Assembly: GCF_009708005.2 (NCBI RefSeq)
Contig: NZ_CP052757.1
Span: forward strand, 744,001-808,000
Origin: Cellulosimicrobium protaetiae
Lineage (GTDB): Bacteria > Actinomycetota > Actinomycetes > Actinomycetales > Cellulomonadaceae
Direction: 5' to 3'
DNA: 64,000 nt
Shown: positions 2,697 through 61,243 of the stretch, piece by piece
How the letters are laid out: the number at the start of each line of letters is the position of its first letter
How positions within the stretch are numbered: position 1 is the first letter of the stretch
Notes under the pieces: model-generated
What the model saw: the letters and a program-made list of their open reading frames with translations, nothing else
Told to the model about the DNA's origin: nothing
The model's database searches: none
Position numbers and translations under genes: made by a program

Positions 2697-3457
2697 GGGG
2701 CCACCTCCACGCCGAACGCGAGCGCGAGGTTCTCGGGCCGCAGGACCTCCTCGGGCGTCGAGTGCAGCAGGACGCGCTGCTGGAGCAGCACAGCCTCGTC
2801 CGCGAGGGCGGGCAGGGCGTGCAGGTCGTGGGTCGAGACGAGCACGGTCGCACCACCGGCGGCGAGCTCGCGCAGCAGCGCGGTGATCGTCGCCTCGGTG
2901 CGCTTGTCGACGCCCGCGAACGGCTCGTCGAGCAGCAGGATCGTGGCCCCCTGCGCGAGCCCGCGCGCGACGAACGCGCGCTTGCGCTGCCCGCCCGAGA
3001 GCGCGCCGATCTGCCGGTCGGCGAGGTCCGTCAGCTCGACGCGCTCGAGCGCGTGCGCGACCGCCTCGCGGTCGGCGGGGCGTGTGCGCCGCGTGAACCC
3101 CTGGTAGCCGTAGCGCCCGGTCATGACGACGTCGCGCACGCTCAGCGGGAACGCCCAGTCGACGTCCTCGCTCTGCGGCACGTACCCCACGGCCTGGGCG
3201 CGCCGGGCGCGCGCGGGCGGTGCGCCGTCGACCAGCACGGTGCCGCGGTCCGGGCGGACCATGCCCATGACCGCCTTGAACAGCGTCGACTTCCCCGAGC
3301 CGTTCATCCCGACCAGCCCGCACACGGTCCCCGGTCCGTGCGCCGACCCCAGGGCGAGGGTCGCGCCGTCGAGCGCGAGGACGTCGCCGTAGTGGACGGT
3401 GAGGTCGCGCACGTCGATCGCGGGCGTGCCCGACGGCGCGCGCTCGCCCGCGCTCAC
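2693..3457 (-). CDS. metal ABC transporter ATP-binding protein
   Basis: ATPase of 254 residues for the metal importer. Walker A GMNGSGKST is at about 50-58, followed by a Q-loop segment (VPQSEDVDW), the signature LSGGQRKR, Walker B ILLLDEP and an H-loop in STHDLHAL. The segment VDWAFPLSVRDVVMTGRYG is typical of Mn/Fe-type (SitB/MntB-like) ATPases. The start is a GTG overlapping the stop of the binding-protein gene by four bases (GTGA), and its own stop overlaps the permease start the same way. The three genes therefore appear tightly translationally coupled. Confidence 0.93.
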   Translation of the reverse strand: MSAGERAPSGTPAIDVRDLTVHYGDVLALDGATLALGSAHGPGTVCGLVGMNGSGKSTLFKAVMGMVRPDRGTVLVDGAPPARARRAQAVGYVPQSEDVDWAFPLSVRDVVMTGRYGYQGFTRRTRPADREAVAHALERVELTDLADRQIGALSGGQRKRAFVARGLAQGATILLLDEPFAGVDKRTEATITALLRELAAGGATVLVSTHDLHALPALADEAVLLQQRVLLHSTPEEVLRPENLALAFGVEVAP

Positions 3458-4404
3458 GCGTCGCCCTCGGTCGCGCCGGTGAGGCCCGCCACGATCGTGT
3501 CGACGTCGTGCCGGAGGAGGTCGAGGTACGTCGGCACGGGGCCGTCGGGCTCGGAGAGCGAGTCGACGTAGAGCGTGCCGCCGAACGCCGCACCGGACTC
3601 CAGCGCGACCTGGCGCATCGCCTTGTCCGAGACGGTGGACTCGCAGAACACCGCCGGGACGTCGTTCTCCTCGACGAACTCGATGGTGCCCGCGACGGAC
3701 TGCGGTGTCGCCTGCTGCTCGGCGTTGACGGCCCACAGGTACTGCTCGGTGAGGCCGGCGTCACGGGCGAGGTAGGAGAACGCGCCCTCGCACGAGACGA
3801 GCGCGCGGTGGTTCTCGGGAAGGGTGTCGAGCGCGGTCGTCAGCTCGTCGTGGACGGTCGCGAGCTCGGCCGAGTACGCCGCGGCGTTCGCCGCGTAGTC
3901 GTCGGCGTGCGCCGGGTCGAGCTCGGCGAACGCGTCGGCCATGTTCTGCGCGTAGAGCTGTCCGTTCACGGGCGACATCCACGCGTGCGGGTTGTCCTCG
4001 CCCTGGTACTCCTCGGCGGTGTCGTCGCCGAGCGCGATCGGCTCCACGCCCTCGCTCACGACGACGTGCGGCACGTCCAGCCCGTCGACGAACCGCCCGA
4101 ACCACGCCTCGAGCCCCATGCCGTTGTCGAGGATCAGGTCCGCGTCCGCCGCCCTGCGGAGGTCTCCCGGCGTCGGCTCGTAACCGTGGATCTCTGCCCC
4201 GACCTTCGTGATCGACTCGACCCGGAGGTGCTCGCCCGCGACGTTCTGCGCCATGTCCGCGAGCACGGTGAACGTCGTGAGCACGACCGGCCGCCCGTCG
4301 TCGACGGTGGTCTCGCCGCCCGCGTCCGTCCCGGCGGAGCACCCGGCGAGCGTCAGCGCGACGACGCCCGCCGCGACGGTCAGGAGCGGCGCCCGGGCAT
4401 GCAT
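3454..4404 (-). CDS. metal ABC transporter substrate-binding lipoprotein (SitA/PsaA-like, probably Mn/Fe)
   Basis: Lipoprotein of 316 residues with lipobox LTLAGC (Cys22 is the likely lipidated residue). By comparison with the PsaA/TroA family the metal ligands are His73 (EIHGYEPTPGD), His140 (NPHAWMSP), Glu206 (SCEGAFSYL) and Asp281 (YVDSLS). The absence of a His-rich loop between the two His ligands argues against a ZnuA-type zinc protein and for Mn/Fe, though this is inference. It heads an operon with the ATPase and permease. A perfect inverted repeat at 4426-4439, next to a TAGATT -10-like box, suggests DtxR/MntR-type metal repression. Confidence 0.92.
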   Translation of the reverse strand: MHARAPLLTVAAGVVALTLAGCSAGTDAGGETTVDDGRPVVLTTFTVLADMAQNVAGEHLRVESITKVGAEIHGYEPTPGDLRRAADADLILDNGMGLEAWFGRFVDGLDVPHVVVSEGVEPIALGDDTAEEYQGEDNPHAWMSPVNGQLYAQNMADAFAELDPAHADDYAANAAAYSAELATVHDELTTALDTLPENHRALVSCEGAFSYLARDAGLTEQYLWAVNAEQQATPQSVAGTIEFVEENDVPAVFCESTVSDKAMRQVALESGAAFGGTLYVDSLSEPDGPVPTYLDLLRHDVDTIVAGLTGATEGDA

Positions 4405-4425
4405 TCCGGCATCCGGGAATCAAAG

Positions 4426-4439
4426 TTCGGCACACCGAA
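4426..4439. promoter_or_regulatory. palindromic operator candidate for metal transporter operon
   Basis: The sequence TTCGG-CACA-CCGAA is a perfect 5-bp inverted repeat with a 4-nt spacer, 22 bp upstream of the binding-protein start. On the minus strand the -10-like TAGATT (4441-4446) abuts it, so a bound repressor would block transcription initiation. A DtxR/MntR-family regulator is the natural guess for a Mn/Fe importer; no such gene is in this window. Confidence 0.5.
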
Positions 4440-4473
4440 GAATCTAGTCCGGACGCCCTCCTCGCGCAACGCC

Positions 4474-4997
4474 CCGAGGCACCCCCCGGGTCCGCCGAGG
4501 TAGAACCCTGGTCCCGCGAGATTGAACCGTGGTCGCGCGAGATAGAACCTCGGTCCGCTGAGGTAGAACCGTGGTTGTGCGAGATCGAACCGTGGTCATG
4601 CCCGACGGCGGACCGTGGTACCTGTCGAAAGGCGCGAGGCTGTGTCGATCGGATGGGCGACGCGGGGTGGTTCAGCGGGGCGGCCGATCCCGCGCGGCTG
4701 GGACGCCGCGGAACGGACGACGCGGGGGTCAGCACGGGTGGGCGAAGACCAGGGCGAGACGACGCCGGGCGGGGTGGGTGGTGGTGCCGCGTCGTGGCGG
4801 GCCTGGCGGGAGCCGCGAGGAACGAGCGGCGGATGGTAGACGCGGCACCACCACCCACCCCGACCACCCAACGCGACCACACGCCGTCGGGCACGACCAC
4901 GGTTCTACTTCGGCGGACCGAGGTTCTATCTCGCGGGACCAGGGTTCTACCTCGGCGGACCGGGGGGCTGCTTCGGGGGAACGGGGTGCTCCCTCGC
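4474..4997. repeat. nested inverted-repeat element made of 21-nt modules
   Basis: This fills the gap between the metal operon and the IclR gene. The left arm holds six head-to-tail modules of exactly 21 nt (4474-4599) with core CGAGRTAGAACCSTGGTC, ended by GCCCGACGGCG. The right arm holds five modules in opposite orientation (4893-4997), also ended by GCCCGACGGCG (4882-4892, complement). Inside lies a perfect 23-bp inverted repeat, 4771-4793 with 4839-4861. The rightmost modules run into the IclR coding end and supply its stop codon. Reading frames through it give only 7-residue repeats and are not credible genes. No transposase is present. Confidence 0.85.
4771..4861. repeat. 23-bp perfect inverted repeat with conserved 45-nt loop
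   Basis: Arms 4771-4793 and 4839-4861 are exact reverse complements. The 45-nt loop (starting GTGGCGGGCCTGGCGGGAGC, ending GGATGGTA) closely resembles the loop of a second hairpin, in opposite orientation, at 59026-59095 inside the helicase gene. There the arm sequences differ but remain complementary. Confidence 0.8.
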
Positions 4998-5750
4998 GCC
5001 GAGGCGGCGGCTCACCTCGGTGGCGGCGCGGCCGACGGCGGCGGCGAGCTCGGCGCGTCGGGCGGGCGGGGCGTCGTCAGCCCAGAACGTGAGGGCGATG
5101 CCGGCCACCGGGAGGCCGGTGTGGTCCACCGCCGCGTGGGCGACGGACGCGAGTCCGGGGGTGACCTCGCCGTCCTCCTCGGCCCAGCCGCGCTGTCGGA
5201 CGCCGCGCAGGACCTCGCGCAGCGCGCCCAGGGACTGCGGCCCGACGCCGGTCCGGTCGGCGAACGCGGCGGCGCTGGGGAAGAGGGCGCGGACCTGGGC
5301 GGCGGGCAGGCCCGCGAGGACCGCACGCCCGCTCGCGGTGAGGTGGGCGGGGAGGCGGACGTCGACGTCGGTCACGAGCGTGGGGCGGCGCGGTGCGCGC
5401 TGCTCGACGAGGTAGAGGACCTCGCGCCCGTTGAGGACGGCGAGGTGGGCGCTCTCTCCCGTCGACTCGACGAGGCGTGCGACGACGGGTCGCGCGAGGC
5501 GGGCGAGCGGTGCCTGCCGCGCGTAGGCGGAGCCGAGCGCGAGGGACGCCGTCCCGAGCCCGTAGCGGTGCTCCTCCGGCAGGTGGGTCACGAACCCCTC
5601 GTCCACGAGGACGGACAGCAGGTGGTAGACGGTCGACCGGGGGAGCCCGAGGCCCTGCGCGACGGCGGCCGCGGGCGACGGGCCGGCCTGGGCGGCGAGG
5701 TAGGTGAGCACGCGGACGGCCTGGCGCGCGGCGGGGACGTCGCTCGGCAT
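4947..5750 (-). CDS. IclR-family transcriptional regulator
   Basis: Protein of 267 residues with an N-terminal winged helix (about 1-65, including LGLPRSTVYHLLSVLVDEGFV) and a C-terminal IclR effector-binding domain (HLTASGRAVLAG, GWAEEDGEVTPGLASVA). IclR proteins usually regulate catabolic genes; the hut genes 4 kb away are one possible target, but there is no direct evidence. The ATG is 7 nt from TACCGT (5758-5763, complement). It is divergent from the AraC-type gene. Oddity: the last 16 residues (AREHPVPPKQPPGPPR) are encoded by in-frame 21-nt repeat modules, so the repeat has replaced or extended the natural C-terminus and provides the TAG stop. Confidence 0.9.
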   Translation of the reverse strand: MPSDVPAARQAVRVLTYLAAQAGPSPAAAVAQGLGLPRSTVYHLLSVLVDEGFVTHLPEEHRYGLGTASLALGSAYARQAPLARLARPVVARLVESTGESAHLAVLNGREVLYLVEQRAPRRPTLVTDVDVRLPAHLTASGRAVLAGLPAAQVRALFPSAAAFADRTGVGPQSLGALREVLRGVRQRGWAEEDGEVTPGLASVAHAAVDHTGLPVAGIALTFWADDAPPARRAELAAAVGRAATEVSRRLGAREHPVPPKQPPGPPR

Positions 5751-5784
5751 GGAGACCACGGTAGGGCCGTGGCACGATCGAGGC

Positions 5785-6348
5785 GTGACGACCCTGCCCG
5801 ACGACCAGCGCCTGCGCGACCTCGCGCGGCTGCGGAGCGTGCGCGACCGGATCGACCGCGAGTACGCGCAACCGCTCGACGTCGCGGCGCTCGCGGCCGG
5901 CGTGCACGTGTCGGCCGGGCACCTGAGCCGGGAGTTCAAGGCCGCGTACGGGGAGTCGGTGTACGCGTACCTCATGACGCGACGCATCGAGCGCGCGAAG
6001 GCGCTGCTGCGGCGTGGTGACCTGAGCGTCACGGACGTGTGCTTCGCGGTCGGGTGCTCGTCGCTGGGGACGTTCAGCACGCGCTTCACCGAGCTCGTGG
6101 GAGTGCCGCCGAGCGTGTACCGACGTCGGGCGGCCGAGTCCGACGCCGCGGCACGGTCGAGCACGGAGCTTCGCGCGACCGCCACGGCGGGGACGGGCCC
6201 CAGGGCCGCGGACGTCGTGTCCGGCAGGGTTCCGGCCGCCGGGCAGGACCCGGGTGCCGAGCGGCTGGACGGGATACCGGCGTGCGTCGCGCGGCGCGTC
6301 ACGCGACCGGTCAGGAATCGAGAAGCGCGCTCCGGGCGACCGTCCTAG
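5785..6348 (+). CDS. AraC-family helix-turn-helix regulator
   Basis: Protein of 187 residues. The two AraC helix-turn-helix motifs occupy about residues 10-115 (AALAAGVHVSAGHLSREFK and VTDVCFAVGCSSLGTFSTRF, ending GVPPSVYRR). The remaining C-terminal 70 residues are low-complexity and unrecognised. There is no N-terminal ligand-binding domain, so this is the short, DNA-binding-first type. It ends 10 nt before a VOC-family gene on the same strand; such AraC-VOC pairs are common in actinobacteria and the VOC protein is the likely target. The GTG start follows CACGAT by 6 nt. Confidence 0.85.
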   Translation: MTTLPDDQRLRDLARLRSVRDRIDREYAQPLDVAALAAGVHVSAGHLSREFKAAYGESVYAYLMTRRIERAKALLRRGDLSVTDVCFAVGCSSLGTFSTRFTELVGVPPSVYRRRAAESDAAARSSTELRATATAGTGPRAADVVSGRVPAAGQDPGAERLDGIPACVARRVTRPVRNREARSGRPS

Positions 6349-57023: not shown

Positions 57024-57286
57024 GGGTCCTCCTTCGGTGGCGCGCTCCTCACGGCGGAGGCGCGGAGCTCGACGGGACGCGGGGTCCGACGGGAAGAGTA
57101 GGGGAGTTCCGGTCCTCGGCACGAATCGCGCCGCCGTTCGTCCCGTCGCCGCTCGCGCCACGTGGAGCGGCGGGCACGCGGGCCGGGCCGCGTGGGTGGG
57201 CGCTGGTAGAAACGGGTGCAGACCGACGTGGCGGACCGGCGACGGCCCCGGCTCGGCGGTGACCGACTTCTGACCCGGAGGTGTGC

Positions 57287-60200
57287 GTGTTCCTCGTCGA
57301 CGAGCCGGTGCTGCGGGTCCCGGCGGCTGATCCGGGACCGGTCGCCGCGGGCGCCGCTCCGGTGGCCGAACCCGTCCTCGTGCACTCGGCGAGCGACCTC
57401 GTCGTCGCGGCCGACTGCGAGTACCGGCTCCTGTGCCGGCTCGACGAGCAGCTCGGCCGGGCCTCGCGCCGGGACACCGGGGAGGACCCGATGCTCGTGC
57501 GCGCCGCCGCGCTCGGCGAGCGGCACGAGCGCGACGTCCTCGCACGCTACGAGGCCGAGCACGGCCCGTTCGACCCCGCGACGGGTCGGGGCGTCCTTCG
57601 CGTCGAGCCCCCGCGCCGGGCGTCCTGGGACGAGCTCGTCGCCGCCGCGGACCGGACGCTGGCCGCCCTCGAGACGGGGGCCGACGTCGTGCACCAGGCG
57701 AGCTTCTTCGACGGGGCCTTCCACGGGCGCGCCGACTTCCTCGTGCGCACCGGGACGGACGACGCGGGGGCGGCGCGGTACGCCGTCGTCGACACCAAGC
57801 TCGCGCGCCGGGCCAAGGTGCCCGCCCTGCTCCAGCTCGCCGCCTACGGCGACCAGCTCCTCGCGGCGGGCGTCCCGGTCGACCCGGACGTCTCGCTCGT
57901 CCTCGGCACGCGCGAGCGCACGTCGCACCGCCTCGCGGACCTCCTGCCCGTCTTCCGGGACCGCCGCGACAGGCTGGTCCGGATCACGACGGAGCACGTC
58001 GCGCGCGACGGCCGCGCCCCCTGGGACGACCCCGACGTGCGTGCGTGCGGGCGCTGCGACGACTGCCGCGCGCAGATCGAGGCCCGCCGCGACGTGCTCC
58101 TCGTGGGCGGGGTGTACGAGTCGCAGCGCGCGCGGCTGCGCGCGGCGGGGATCCGCACGATCGACGAGCTCGCCGCCGCCACCGACGAGACGCCCGTGCC
58201 CGACGGCATGAGCCGCTCCGCGTTCGCGAAGGTCCGGCGCCAGGCCGCGCTCCAGCTCGGCACCGGGCCGTCCGACGGCACGGTCGTGTGGGCCGACGCG
58301 TCGGGGCCGCACGAGCTCTCGTGGCGCATCGACGACCCCGACCCCGTGCTCGCTCTGCCCCCGCCGAGCCCTGGCGACGTGTTCTTCGACTTCGAGGGCG
58401 ACCCGCTGTGGACGGACGCCGCCGGCACGAGCTGGGGCCTCGACTACCTGTTCGGCTGGGTCGAGCGCCCCACCGGGCCCGACGACCGGCCGCCCTTCCA
58501 CGCGCTGTGGGCCCACGACCTCGCGGCGGAGCGCGACGCGCTCGTCGCGTTCGTCGACCACGTCAACGCGCGCCGCCGCACGTACCCGGACCTGCACGTC
58601 TACCACTACGCCGACTACGAGCGCGCGCACCTGCTCGCGATCGCCGCGCGGCACGGGGTGTACGAGGAGGAGGTCGACGACCTCCTGCGCGACGGCGTCC
58701 TCGTGGACCTGTACGCCGTCGTGCGGCAAGCCCTGCACGTCTCCGACAAGTCCCGCTCGATCAAGAAGCTCGAGCCGCTCTACATGGGCGACGAGCTGCG
58801 CACTGGCGACGTGACCACCGCCGCGGCGTCCGTCGTCGCGTACGCCGAGTACACCGCGCTGCGCGAGGCGCGCCGGGACGACGAGGCGGACGAGCTGCTC
58901 CGCGGGATCGCGGACTACAACCGCTACGACTGCGTGTCGACGCTGCGGCTGGCGGACTGGTTGCGGCATGCGGTCGCCTCTCGTGACGACGCGGTGGCTG
59001 GCCTGGGTGCGGGGTCGGGGGACGTGCGCGCCGTCTACCATCCGCGCCGCTCGTCCCTCGCGGCGCTCCCGCCAGACCCGACCACGACGGCGCGCACGTC
59101 CCCCGACCCCGCTGCGTCCGTCGCCTCTCCCTGCGGTGCGACCTCGACGGGGCGCGCGTTCCAGGGCACTGCTGCTTCCGTCGCCACTCCCTCGGGCGAG
59201 ATCCTTGCCGACCGGGCTGCTGCGGCCGTCGCGGGGGAGGTCGGGCCGCGGGAGCGGCCGTCGGCGGTGGTGCTGGAGGAGGAGATCCGGCAGGCGGTGG
59301 GGGAGGACCGGGCACGGCGCGGTGCGGACGAGCGGGCGCTCGCGCTGTACGGCGCGGCGGCCGGGTACTTCCGGCGCGAGGCCAAGCCCTTCTGGCACGA
59401 GCACTACTCGCGGCTCTCGCTCCCGACGGACGAGTGGCTGGGCCGGCGCAACGCGTTCCTCGTCGAGCAGGCCGAGGTCGTGTCGGGCTGGGAGGTGGAG
59501 CCGGGGCGGCGCACCTGGTCGCGCCGCCTCGAGCTCGTGGGCCGGCTCCCCGAGGGGAGCGACCTGCGCGTCGGCGTCGCGCCGTACGCGCTCTACGACC
59601 CGCCTCTGCCGCCCTGCGCGAAGACCGCCGTCGACGGTGTGCGGGGCTGGCTCACGGGGGCGTCGATCATCGACGCGGCGCGCCGCGCCACGCCCGCCGG
59701 CGAGCGGGACGTGCTGGTCGTGCGCGAGCAGCTCCCGACCGGGGCGGAGCCGTTCGACGCGACCCCCGTCGCGCTCACGCCGTCGCCCGGCCCGAGCGCG
59801 AGCTCCCTGGAGGCGGCGGCGGAGGCCGCAGCCCGGAACGCGTTCGGGTCGTGGCGGGCGACGGGCACGCTGCCGCGCGACGCCGCGACCGACGTCCTCC
59901 TGCGGCGACCCCCGCGGCTCGTGCCGGTGCCCCCTGCGGACCCTGACGTCCCTGACGTCCCTGACGTCCCGGGCGTCCCGGGCGTCCCGGGAGGCGCCGG
60001 CACGGCGGCCGAGCCCGGGCTGCCGCCCGTCGTGGACGGCGACGTCGTCGCGGCCGTCACGTCCGCCGTCGAGCGGCTCGACGACTCGTACCTCGCGGTC
60101 CAGGGGCCGCCCGGGACGGGCAAGACGTACGTCGGGTCGCGGGTCGTCGCCCGGCTCGTCGAGCAGGGGTGGCGGGTCGGCGTCGTCGCCCAGTCGCACG

Positions 60201-61243
60201 CAGTCGTGGAGAACATGCTGCGCGCGATCGTGCTCGGGGCGGGCGTCCCGCGCGACGCCGTCGCGAAGAAGCTGGCGGCGGACGGCCCGTCACCGCGCGC
60301 CGTGTACGACGAGCTCGACGGCAACCGGCTCGCGGCGTTCGCGACCCGCCCGGGCGGCCGGGTCGTCGGCGGGACCGCGTGGGACTTCGCGGCCGACCGG
60401 CTCCCGGCGGGCACGCTGGACCTGCTCGTCGTGGACGAGGCCGGGCAGTTCTCCCTCGCGAGCACGGTCGCGGTGTCGCGGGCCGCGCGCCGGCTCCTCC
60501 TGCTCGGCGACCCGCAGCAGCTCCCGCAGGTGAGCCAGGGCCGGCACCCGGAGCCCGTCGACCGGTCCGTGCTCGGCTGGCTCGCGGACGGCCACGGCGT
60601 GCTCCCGGCCGGGCGCGGCTACTTCCTGCCCACGACGTGGCGCATGCACCCGCGCCTCGCCCGGGCCGTCTCGACGCTCGCGTACGAGGACCGCCTCCAC
60701 GCGCACCCGTGCACGGCGGAGCGCGAGCTCGACGGCGTCGCGCCTGGGGTCGAGCAGGTGCTCGTGGAGCACGCCGGGAACTCGGTGCGCTCTCCCGAGG
60801 AGGCGGCCGAGGTCGTCCGGCAGGTCGAGCGCGTCCTCGGGCGCACGTGGACGACGACGGTCGACGGGGTCGTGGAGGATCGTCCGCTGGGCCAGGGCGA
60901 CGTCCTCGTCGTCGCGGCGTACAACGCGCAGGTGTGGGCCGTGCGCGGCGCGCTCGAGGCGGCGGGGTACCCGGACGTGCAGGTCGGCACCGTCGACCGG
61001 TTCCAGGGCAAGGAGGCACCCGTCGTCGTCGTGACGCTCGCGGCGTCCTCGGGCCGTGAGGCGTCGCGCGGGCTCGGGTTCCTGCTCTCCCGGCACCGCG
61101 TCAACGTCGCGGTGTCGCGCGCGCAGTGGAGCGCGGTCGTCGTGCGCGCGCCGGGTCTCACCGACCTGCTCCCGCACTCCCCGCGCGGTGTCGAGGAGCT
61201 GGGCGCGTTCCTCGGGCTGACGGGCTCCACGCCCGGCGGCTGA
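57287..61243 (+). CDS. TM0106-type RecB-like nuclease / RNase H-like / SF1 (DNA2-like) helicase
   Basis: Protein of 1318 residues. N-terminal RecB-like nuclease (about 30-290) with Asp/Glu/Lys residues (GRADFLV, AVVDTKLARR) and cysteines of VAADCEYRLLC and ACGRCDDC able to hold an iron-sulfur cluster. Then an RNase H-like exonuclease-type domain (about 365-560: FFDFEGDPLW, YADYERAHL, NRYDCVSTLRLADW). A poorly conserved linker follows, then SF1 helicase (from about 930): GPPGTGKT, VVDEAGQFSL, GDPQQLPQ, VDRFQGKEA, VNVAVSRAQ. It probably processes DNA ends or structured DNA. The linker contains a hairpin repeat and a 9-bp tandem repeat. Start at 57287 fits GGAG at 6 nt. Confidence 0.9.
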   Translation: MFLVDEPVLRVPAADPGPVAAGAAPVAEPVLVHSASDLVVAADCEYRLLCRLDEQLGRASRRDTGEDPMLVRAAALGERHERDVLARYEAEHGPFDPATGRGVLRVEPPRRASWDELVAAADRTLAALETGADVVHQASFFDGAFHGRADFLVRTGTDDAGAARYAVVDTKLARRAKVPALLQLAAYGDQLLAAGVPVDPDVSLVLGTRERTSHRLADLLPVFRDRRDRLVRITTEHVARDGRAPWDDPDVRACGRCDDCRAQIEARRDVLLVGGVYESQRARLRAAGIRTIDELAAATDETPVPDGMSRSAFAKVRRQAALQLGTGPSDGTVVWADASGPHELSWRIDDPDPVLALPPPSPGDVFFDFEGDPLWTDAAGTSWGLDYLFGWVERPTGPDDRPPFHALWAHDLAAERDALVAFVDHVNARRRTYPDLHVYHYADYERAHLLAIAARHGVYEEEVDDLLRDGVLVDLYAVVRQALHVSDKSRSIKKLEPLYMGDELRTGDVTTAAASVVAYAEYTALREARRDDEADELLRGIADYNRYDCVSTLRLADWLRHAVASRDDAVAGLGAGSGDVRAVYHPRRSSLAALPPDPTTTARTSPDPAASVASPCGATSTGRAFQGTAASVATPSGEILADRAAAAVAGEVGPRERPSAVVLEEEIRQAVGEDRARRGADERALALYGAAAGYFRREAKPFWHEHYSRLSLPTDEWLGRRNAFLVEQAEVVSGWEVEPGRRTWSRRLELVGRLPEGSDLRVGVAPYALYDPPLPPCAKTAVDGVRGWLTGASIIDAARRATPAGERDVLVVREQLPTGAEPFDATPVALTPSPGPSASSLEAAAEAAARNAFGSWRATGTLPRDAATDVLLRRPPRLVPVPPADPDVPDVPDVPGVPGVPGGAGTAAEPGLPPVVDGDVVAAVTSAVERLDDSYLAVQGPPGTGKTYVGSRVVARLVEQGWRVGVVAQSHAVVENMLRAIVLGAGVPRDAVAKKLAADGPSPRAVYDELDGNRLAAFATRPGGRVVGGTAWDFAADRLPAGTLDLLVVDEAGQFSLASTVAVSRAARRLLLLGDPQQLPQVSQGRHPEPVDRSVLGWLADGHGVLPAGRGYFLPTTWRMHPRLARAVSTLAYEDRLHAHPCTAERELDGVAPGVEQVLVEHAGNSVRSPEEAAEVVRQVERVLGRTWTTTVDGVVEDRPLGQGDVLVVAAYNAQVWAVRGALEAAGYPDVQVGTVDRFQGKEAPVVVVTLAASSGREASRGLGFLLSRHRVNVAVSRAQWSAVVVRAPGLTDLLPHSPRGVEELGAFLGLTGSTPGG
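59026..59095. repeat. conserved-loop hairpin inserted in helicase gene
   Basis: GCGCGCCGTC (59026-59035) and GACGGCGCGC (59086-59095) are perfect inverted repeats. The 50-nt loop, read on the minus strand (GTGGTCGGGTCTGGCGGGAG to GGATGGTA), matches the loop of the hairpin at 4771-4861 apart from a few indels and substitutions. It stays in frame in the interdomain linker. Confidence 0.75.
59942..59986 (+). repeat. 9-bp tandem repeat in helicase gene
   Basis: Three copies of CCTGACGTC followed by two of CCGGGCGTC, encoding a run of Val-Pro-Asp and Val-Pro-Gly units in the linker before the helicase domain. Length variation here would keep the reading frame. Confidence 0.8.

Follow-up and report, generated by a model that had tools for sequence, protein, structure and literature searches.

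The repeats closest to those described here are the REP and BIME elements of the GTAG and CGTC families. In the available parts of the sources, these occur in more than 100 short copies, are intergenic and near stop codons, occupy convergent or codirectional gaps, pair in inverted orientation, and serve as targets of insertion sequences, and our arrays are alike in all of these respects (PMC3733652, PMC2817692, PMC1525189). The same partial sources describe REPs as insertion-sequence targets in other bacteria (PMC1525189) and explain GTAG-type REPs by RAYT transposases (PMC2817692). Regarding Actinomycetota, the accessible part of a 2025 survey gives REP counts for three other species (PMC12306157), and the word Actinobacteria is absent from the accessible part of PMC3733652.

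The locus under study occupies positions 4474–4997 of the window, i.e., the complete 64,000-nt stretch of DNA that was analyzed. It lies between a ZnuA-type gene (3454–4404, minus strand; PF01297, E 8.9e-85) and the open reading frame of an IclR-family regulator (4947–6302, minus strand; PF01614, E 5e-25, and PF09339), and is codirectional by its genes. The true start of the IclR-family gene is probably well inside this reading frame, with domains from residue 195 onward. The left arm (4496–4597, plus strand) comprises five 18-bp cores at 4496, 4517, 4538, 4559, and 4580, which were detected by weight-matrix scan and as repeats with a 21-nt step, and is preceded by a decayed outermost module (4475–4492, plus strand; direct-repeat family D1). 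The right arm (4895–4954, minus strand; weight-matrix scan, direct repeat D2) has three clear cores at 4895, 4916, and 4937, followed by two decayed outer modules at 4958 and 4979 (4958–4996, minus strand), from which the C-terminus of the IclR-type protein would be read. The IclR-type reading frame enters the arm through these two modules and ends on the TAG (4947–4949, minus strand) of the outermost clear module. The six direct and five inverted modules of the initial annotation are reached only when the decayed ones are counted, the clear ones numbering five and three; the shared core was given correctly. As had also been described, the same block borders both arms on their inner side: GCCCGACGGCG was matched at 4600–4610 (plus strand) and, as its reverse complement, at 4882–4892 (minus strand; inverted repeat I10), and it adjoins many arms elsewhere. 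The space between the two arms holds no predicted gene, in agreement with the first description; open reading frames called mechanically cross the element region. The reported inner inverted repeat is present, with 27-nt arms (4767–4793 and 4839–4865) that are 96% complementary. It does not belong to the module system and is the outer stem of a separate structured element with variable stems and constant loops, termed H1 (4774–4858, plus strand; covariance model R1, 100 bits, E 3.6e-15), which is found elsewhere without arrays. Chance as the source of the window modules is excluded, as we obtained eight matches within three mismatches compared to a mean of 0.52 and a maximum of two in shuffled sequence.

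The initial annotation had proposed to look for further copies, their placement, and their variation; copies were found genome-wide and in relatives, they are mostly gene-terminal, and their module number differs between species. In the genome of the window (G000), the core GAGRTHGAACCNYGGT has 213 exact matches and its reversed control has none. A weight-matrix scan of 72 stretches, chosen from 198 of the 213 exact core sites, revealed at least 481 modules in at least 77 array clusters, with further arrays outside these clusters at L193 and L194. The modules are organized in 137 arms, which hold between one and eight modules each. Each unit consists of an 18-nt core plus 3 nt, the core being conserved and the spacer bases variable, and 335 of 344 neighboring module pairs follow a 21-nt step. 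Array edges are sharp, with a trace one step further out in 35% of the 137 arms and two steps out in 6%. Both strands are used at 48 of the 77 loci, where the arms face each other in 47 cases and point outward in one (L065, whose G008 counterpart is likewise outward-pointing), and 29 loci have one arm only. The inner modules of the 47 facing pairs are 0–6 nt apart in 10, 23 and 45 nt apart in two, and 103–759 nt apart in 35. GTAG occurs inside 302 of the 481 modules and ATAG in 56, at no visible stem foot. The center of the closed palindromes, TGGTC-NN-GACCA (e.g., L122:500–538), may resemble a GntR/DasR-type operator. A different small palindromic array, of the GGCGTCGAACCCGGG type, was seen at L224:780–890, which suggests that the genus holds more repeat families of such sort.

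Over the whole unit in G000, modules of the same array resemble each other little more than random modules do (0.788 vs. 0.762), and local slippage was rejected as the sole source of the arrays. At core base 10, however, the likeness of neighbors exceeds chance, most of all in G004 (0.794 vs. 0.51, from 19 arms) and also in G008 (0.712 vs. 0.626) and G000 (0.908 vs. 0.864), a pattern compatible both with local copying and with selection.

Regarding gene context, genes were predicted by our own codon model, independently of annotation. The 71 loci with clean gene calls comprise 32 convergent, 36 tandem, one divergent, and two undetermined gaps. In the same stretches, the gaps of at least 60 nt that lack arrays comprise 17 convergent, 81 tandem, and 66 divergent ones. 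Six of the 77 loci, including the window locus, were set aside from this count due to open reading frame calls overlapping the array (L052, L059, L061, L092, L100, and L104). Of the 101 gene 3' ends that face an array, 42 are separated from its first module by 0–30 nt, and for 21 the stop codon is the TAG of that module itself. One-armed arrays are sense to the nearest gene end in 16 cases and antisense in eight (n = 24), i.e., they lean to sense and follow no firm strand rule.

The excess of convergent gaps and the closeness to stop codons would also suit hairpins acting at the RNA level, where transcripts from either side would fold arm on arm and serve as a two-way terminator or 3'-end stabilizer. 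We consider this explanation somewhat unlikely. It gains from the closed palindromes, which fold far beyond shuffles (z −9.5 to −13.3, seven of seven tried), and from the lean of the one-armed arrays to sense (16 of 24). The innermost modules of closed palindromes, furthermore, match above shuffle (16.27 vs. 15.32 of 18, 37 pairs; p 0.07 for G000 alone, p 0.018 for G008 alone, with a third group whose result is inflated because several species are pooled in it), which may point to pairing in a hairpin or to inverted duplication. However, 29 of the 77 loci are one-armed, and the 20 one-armed arrays of at least three modules, taken together, do not fold (mean z of −0.55 on one strand and −0.51 on the other), the two exceptions being L052, which holds a copy of the second block described below (H2), and L114 on one strand. 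Facing arms are about as alike as random modules (0.769 vs. 0.762) and do not covary at variable positions in 47 pairs; arm-to-arm RNA pairing as a selected feature is thus unsupported, though the innermost closed pairs lie above shuffle. Runs of at least four T were absent from the 25 bases on either side of seven closed palindromes, where an intrinsic terminator would have its U-tract. Pairing inside modules was also rejected, as the mutual information mainly reflects the choice of CG or GC at positions −1 and 0 plus neighboring letters. Since one-armed arrays lack both an RNA fold and a firm strand rule, a DNA-level protein-binding array is favored; fold and strand data together favor DNA recognition and leave room for action as RNA.

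The arrays vary between species both in extent and in sequence. Across 10 species, the znuA–iclR gap ranges from no module (G006 and G009) to seven plus six modules (G004); in G006, the element is absent and 98 bp lie between the aligned gene ends. Both flanks match a G000 array locus for 18 of the 33 G008 array loci fetched, so many sites are old, and module numbers and middles differ between species at these shared loci. One core base (base 10) differs by species, as seen from the counts of GAACC:GAGCC, two search patterns that differ slightly at other letters too. GAACC dominates in G000 (213:7) and G004 (199:99), and the counts are 14:2 in G015 and 6:4 in G013. GAGCC prevails in G005 (26:230), G001 (46:150), G016 (8:136), G011 (6:125), G002 (2:115), G006 (19:79), G008 (7:54), G010 (0:35), and G009 (0:8), and the remaining counts are 0:3 in G007, 0:1 in G003 and G012, and 0:0 in G014. 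By these numbers, G000, G001, G002, G004, G005, G006, G008, G011, and G016 are rich in arrays, and G003, G007, G012, and G014 are poor in them.

Beyond the genus, two-module arrays were found in 18 of 150 family genomes and 6 of 25 genera. The reversed control of this pattern matched in five of the 150 (G002, G019, G426, G502, and G510), which indicates some other repeat there. A stricter pattern, applied to an even sample of the order, matched the own genome only (1 of 396, in a sample without other members of the genus). A closed-palindrome pattern returned eight stretches, five from Cellulosimicrobium cellulans MP1, two from Oerskovia flava, and one from a Chloroflexi draft genome, the last of which may be a chance match; single 16-mer matches in G028, G030, G032, G042, and G049 look like chance. 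Closed palindromes with a 20-nt step occur at loci in Oerskovia (two), G026 (one), and G013 of the own genus (one), so the exact helical phase is not universal. The same 20-nt step, together with the mostly intergenic location of the arrays, led us to reject a coding repeat, which had been suggested by the equality of 21 nt with seven codons.

H1 was recovered by the covariance model in 31 of 35 array interiors of at least 100 nt, and is missing in L081, L083, L084, and L121. Its loops GTGGCGGGYCTGGCGGGA, GAGG[ACG]ACGA, and GGATGGTAG, which served as the search key, are nearly constant, whereas both stems vary. Among 13 non-redundant copies, 98.1% of cells are paired, both sides have changed in 21 of 26 pairs, and the covariation score is 0.698, compared to 0.148 after shuffling and no more than 0.126 after sliding. 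Near-duplicates were left out of this set, as were the 7 of 31 forms that pair at fewer than 12 of the 15 outer positions, and this selection favors pairing. Five of these seven forms contain an internal-loop motif similar to GGATGCGAAGGG/CCCGAGCACC. In 24 H1 forms, which have 19 different outer stems, the outer stem, on the strand as written, has 348 Watson–Crick, nine G–T, one A–C, and two other pairs, and the inner stems have 173, three, two, and six, respectively. The G–T excess of the outer stem hints that the strand as written acts as RNA. Rfam 15 gave no match up to E 1 for window positions 4400–5060, and for four other H1 loci it gave two matches, both of them outside H1 and short of the gathering score. 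In the family, H1 was found in 28 of 150 genomes and 5 of 25 genera, with no match of the control. It is common in array-poor species (40 copies in G003, 36 in G012, 35 in G014, and 28 in G015), although G007 gave no match, and recurs at the same gene gap across species, e.g., in G000, G010, and G005 between genes that we take to be ruvC and yebC. In G004 (C. cellulans MP1), 12 contigs (C2, C5, C7, C8, C9, C11, C12, C13, C17, C18, C20, and C21) start no more than 70 bases from an H1 core, so H1 repeats seem to break assemblies.

H1 is also found inside protein genes. A second copy in the window (59016–59105, minus strand; 81.4 bits, E 9.1e-12) lies in frame in a helicase-nuclease gene (57281–61243, plus strand), and its counterparts in this gene of G008 and G011 have stems that are altered and still paired. 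Further in-frame copies, in different reading frames, occur in HrpA at two different places (L226:3–3038, minus strand; L202:1–2694, plus strand), in an NHL-repeat protein (L215:306–2723, plus strand), and in LigD (L196:3938–6982, minus strand), there between the phosphoesterase and ligase domains. In the alignment to E. coli HrpA, the query skips from residue 467 to residue 541, whereas the E. coli protein advances from 613 to 621 at this point; H1 occupies 484–523. As H1 stands in frame in unrelated genes and in different frames, a nucleic-acid fold is kept and not a peptide. The second block, H2 (about 144 nt), occurs at 20 places in the 72 stretches, and at 15 of these a module lies no more than 60 nt away. 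It is a hairpin-like cassette (e.g., L107:4033–4176) that has the GGATGCGAAGGG/CCCGAGCACC motif in common with some H1 forms. At L105, tandem GAGCCCGCGTGGTTGCGTCCC units lie between the left arm and H2.

The initial annotation had left the choice between a mobile element and a binding array. A dispersed composite repeat that lacks its own gene and may be a binding array is supported to the extent that sequence can tell, and mobility of the arrays is conjectural, as many positions are common to species. A non-autonomous mobile element, with arrayed ends recognized in trans by a putative transposase, is unlikely in our view, despite several points in its favor: at least 34 further H1 units are 87–94% identical to one reference unit (from 40 of 222 first-look candidates scored) and mostly adjoin an arm, the element is absent from the znuA–iclR gap of G006, and 12 G004 contigs begin close to an H1 core. 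It is countered by the 18 of 33 compared array loci common to species and by the lack of a gene inside the window element. Moreover, no Y1/RAYT transposase (PF01797) was detected in any of 17 genus genomes, compared to control matches in 5 of 14, and searches of phage records, plasmid records, and (in two scans) viral contigs gave no match, though records near the host genome were perhaps left out of them. On these grounds, we rejected a phage or plasmid origin as well as a RAYT-made REP, the latter with PF01797 as the sole model sought, so that another enzyme type could act. As gene-end repeats this dense and fast-changing exist in a genus where PF01797 has no match, another maker or keeper should exist. 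Two insertion sequences were found within array arms. One, at L093:4060–5365, is a transposase gene with inverted ends that we take to be IS30-like (rve match of 31.7 bits, just under the cut-off of 32.6), and the other is an IS110-type transposase in a G011 arm (L224:1670–2970), flanked by module pieces.

Tentatively, and with slightly more doubt than belief, we regard the arrays as a genus-level, gene-terminal interspersed repeat that acts like REP/BIME, i.e., a DNA-level protein-binding array that would mark or insulate gene ends. The unit consists of two opposed arrays in which an 18-bp core recurs every 21 bp, close to two turns of the helix, and it lies just behind stop codons. A putative host protein would recognize the arrays as double-stranded DNA, sitting repeatedly along the helix, and its presence would mark or insulate the gene ends. 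Such a protein would hold the core bases and leave the bases between them freer, and a shift in its preference would shift the core genome-wide, to GAACC or GAGCC. Module numbers would change via unequal exchange. The middle of the pair may be a tolerated landing place for H1 and H2, which would have come in separately and then spread with the arrays. Functionless repeats, kept where they are least harmful at gene 3' ends and homogenized by recombination, could account for the free variation of module number at one locus, the likeness of neighbors at core base 10, and the two kinds of insertion sequence that landed in arrays, but are very improbable given the conserved core amid variable spacer bases, the 21-nt step with few exceptions, and the species-wide base difference at shared loci.

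Under the binding-array reading, the change of one core base across whole species offers a direct way to test for a co-evolving binding protein. H1 is a clean case of a structure that is kept while its stem sequence is almost free, both at intergenic sites and in protein genes. It also provides a simple motif with which to search for its function and mover. It is possible, although we hold it with considerable reserve, that two systems not found in print are joined here, namely a species-tuned gene-end binding array found across an actinobacterial genus and H1, a folded mobile element, probably transcribed and with constant loops, that enters arrays and, in frame, genes, its fold kept by compensatory change even in coding sequence. 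The literature searched, without most subscription journals, contained nothing on these repeats, and H1 was found neither there nor in Rfam.

Among known systems, CRISPR arrays share the regular direct repeats. They differ in that our arrays have 3-nt spacers, no stored sequences, and inverted pairs; with an 18-nt core plus 3 nt at a step of 21 and no unique spacers, a CRISPR array was rejected, as the initial annotation had judged. MITEs are similarly gene-less and repeated with inverted ends, whereas the element described here ends in arrays of variable length and has many loci common to species. Plasmid iterons are DNA-binding arrays whose direct repeats are likewise near 21 bp in length, roughly two turns of the helix; unlike these, our arrays are located at dozens of chromosomal loci, and no replication or partition gene lies beside the window element. 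Rickettsia palindromic elements are hairpins placed in frame inside unrelated protein genes in differing frames. H1 resembles them in its manner of insertion and differs in its constant internal loops, free stems, additional occurrence in intergenic arrays, and phylum. Compared to REP/BIME, the arrays are direct tandem repeats at 21 nt, and since no Y1/RAYT was found in 17 of 17 genomes, they are not REPs by membership, in accordance with the initial annotation. A REP unit is a small stem-loop, whereas the 20 one-armed arrays with at least three modules do not fold as a group. The arrays therefore fail REP membership on these two tested features. On the other hand, they show the high copy number and the gene-terminal placement in convergent or unidirectional gaps by which REPs are recognized. 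BIMEs consist of opposed REPs with inter-REP motifs; here, opposed units and inner motifs are present, but the units are not REPs. In their gene-end placement and opposed units, the arrays are REP/BIME-like in behavior, and among gene-end interspersed repeats they represent a variant that is new, at the level of a genus.
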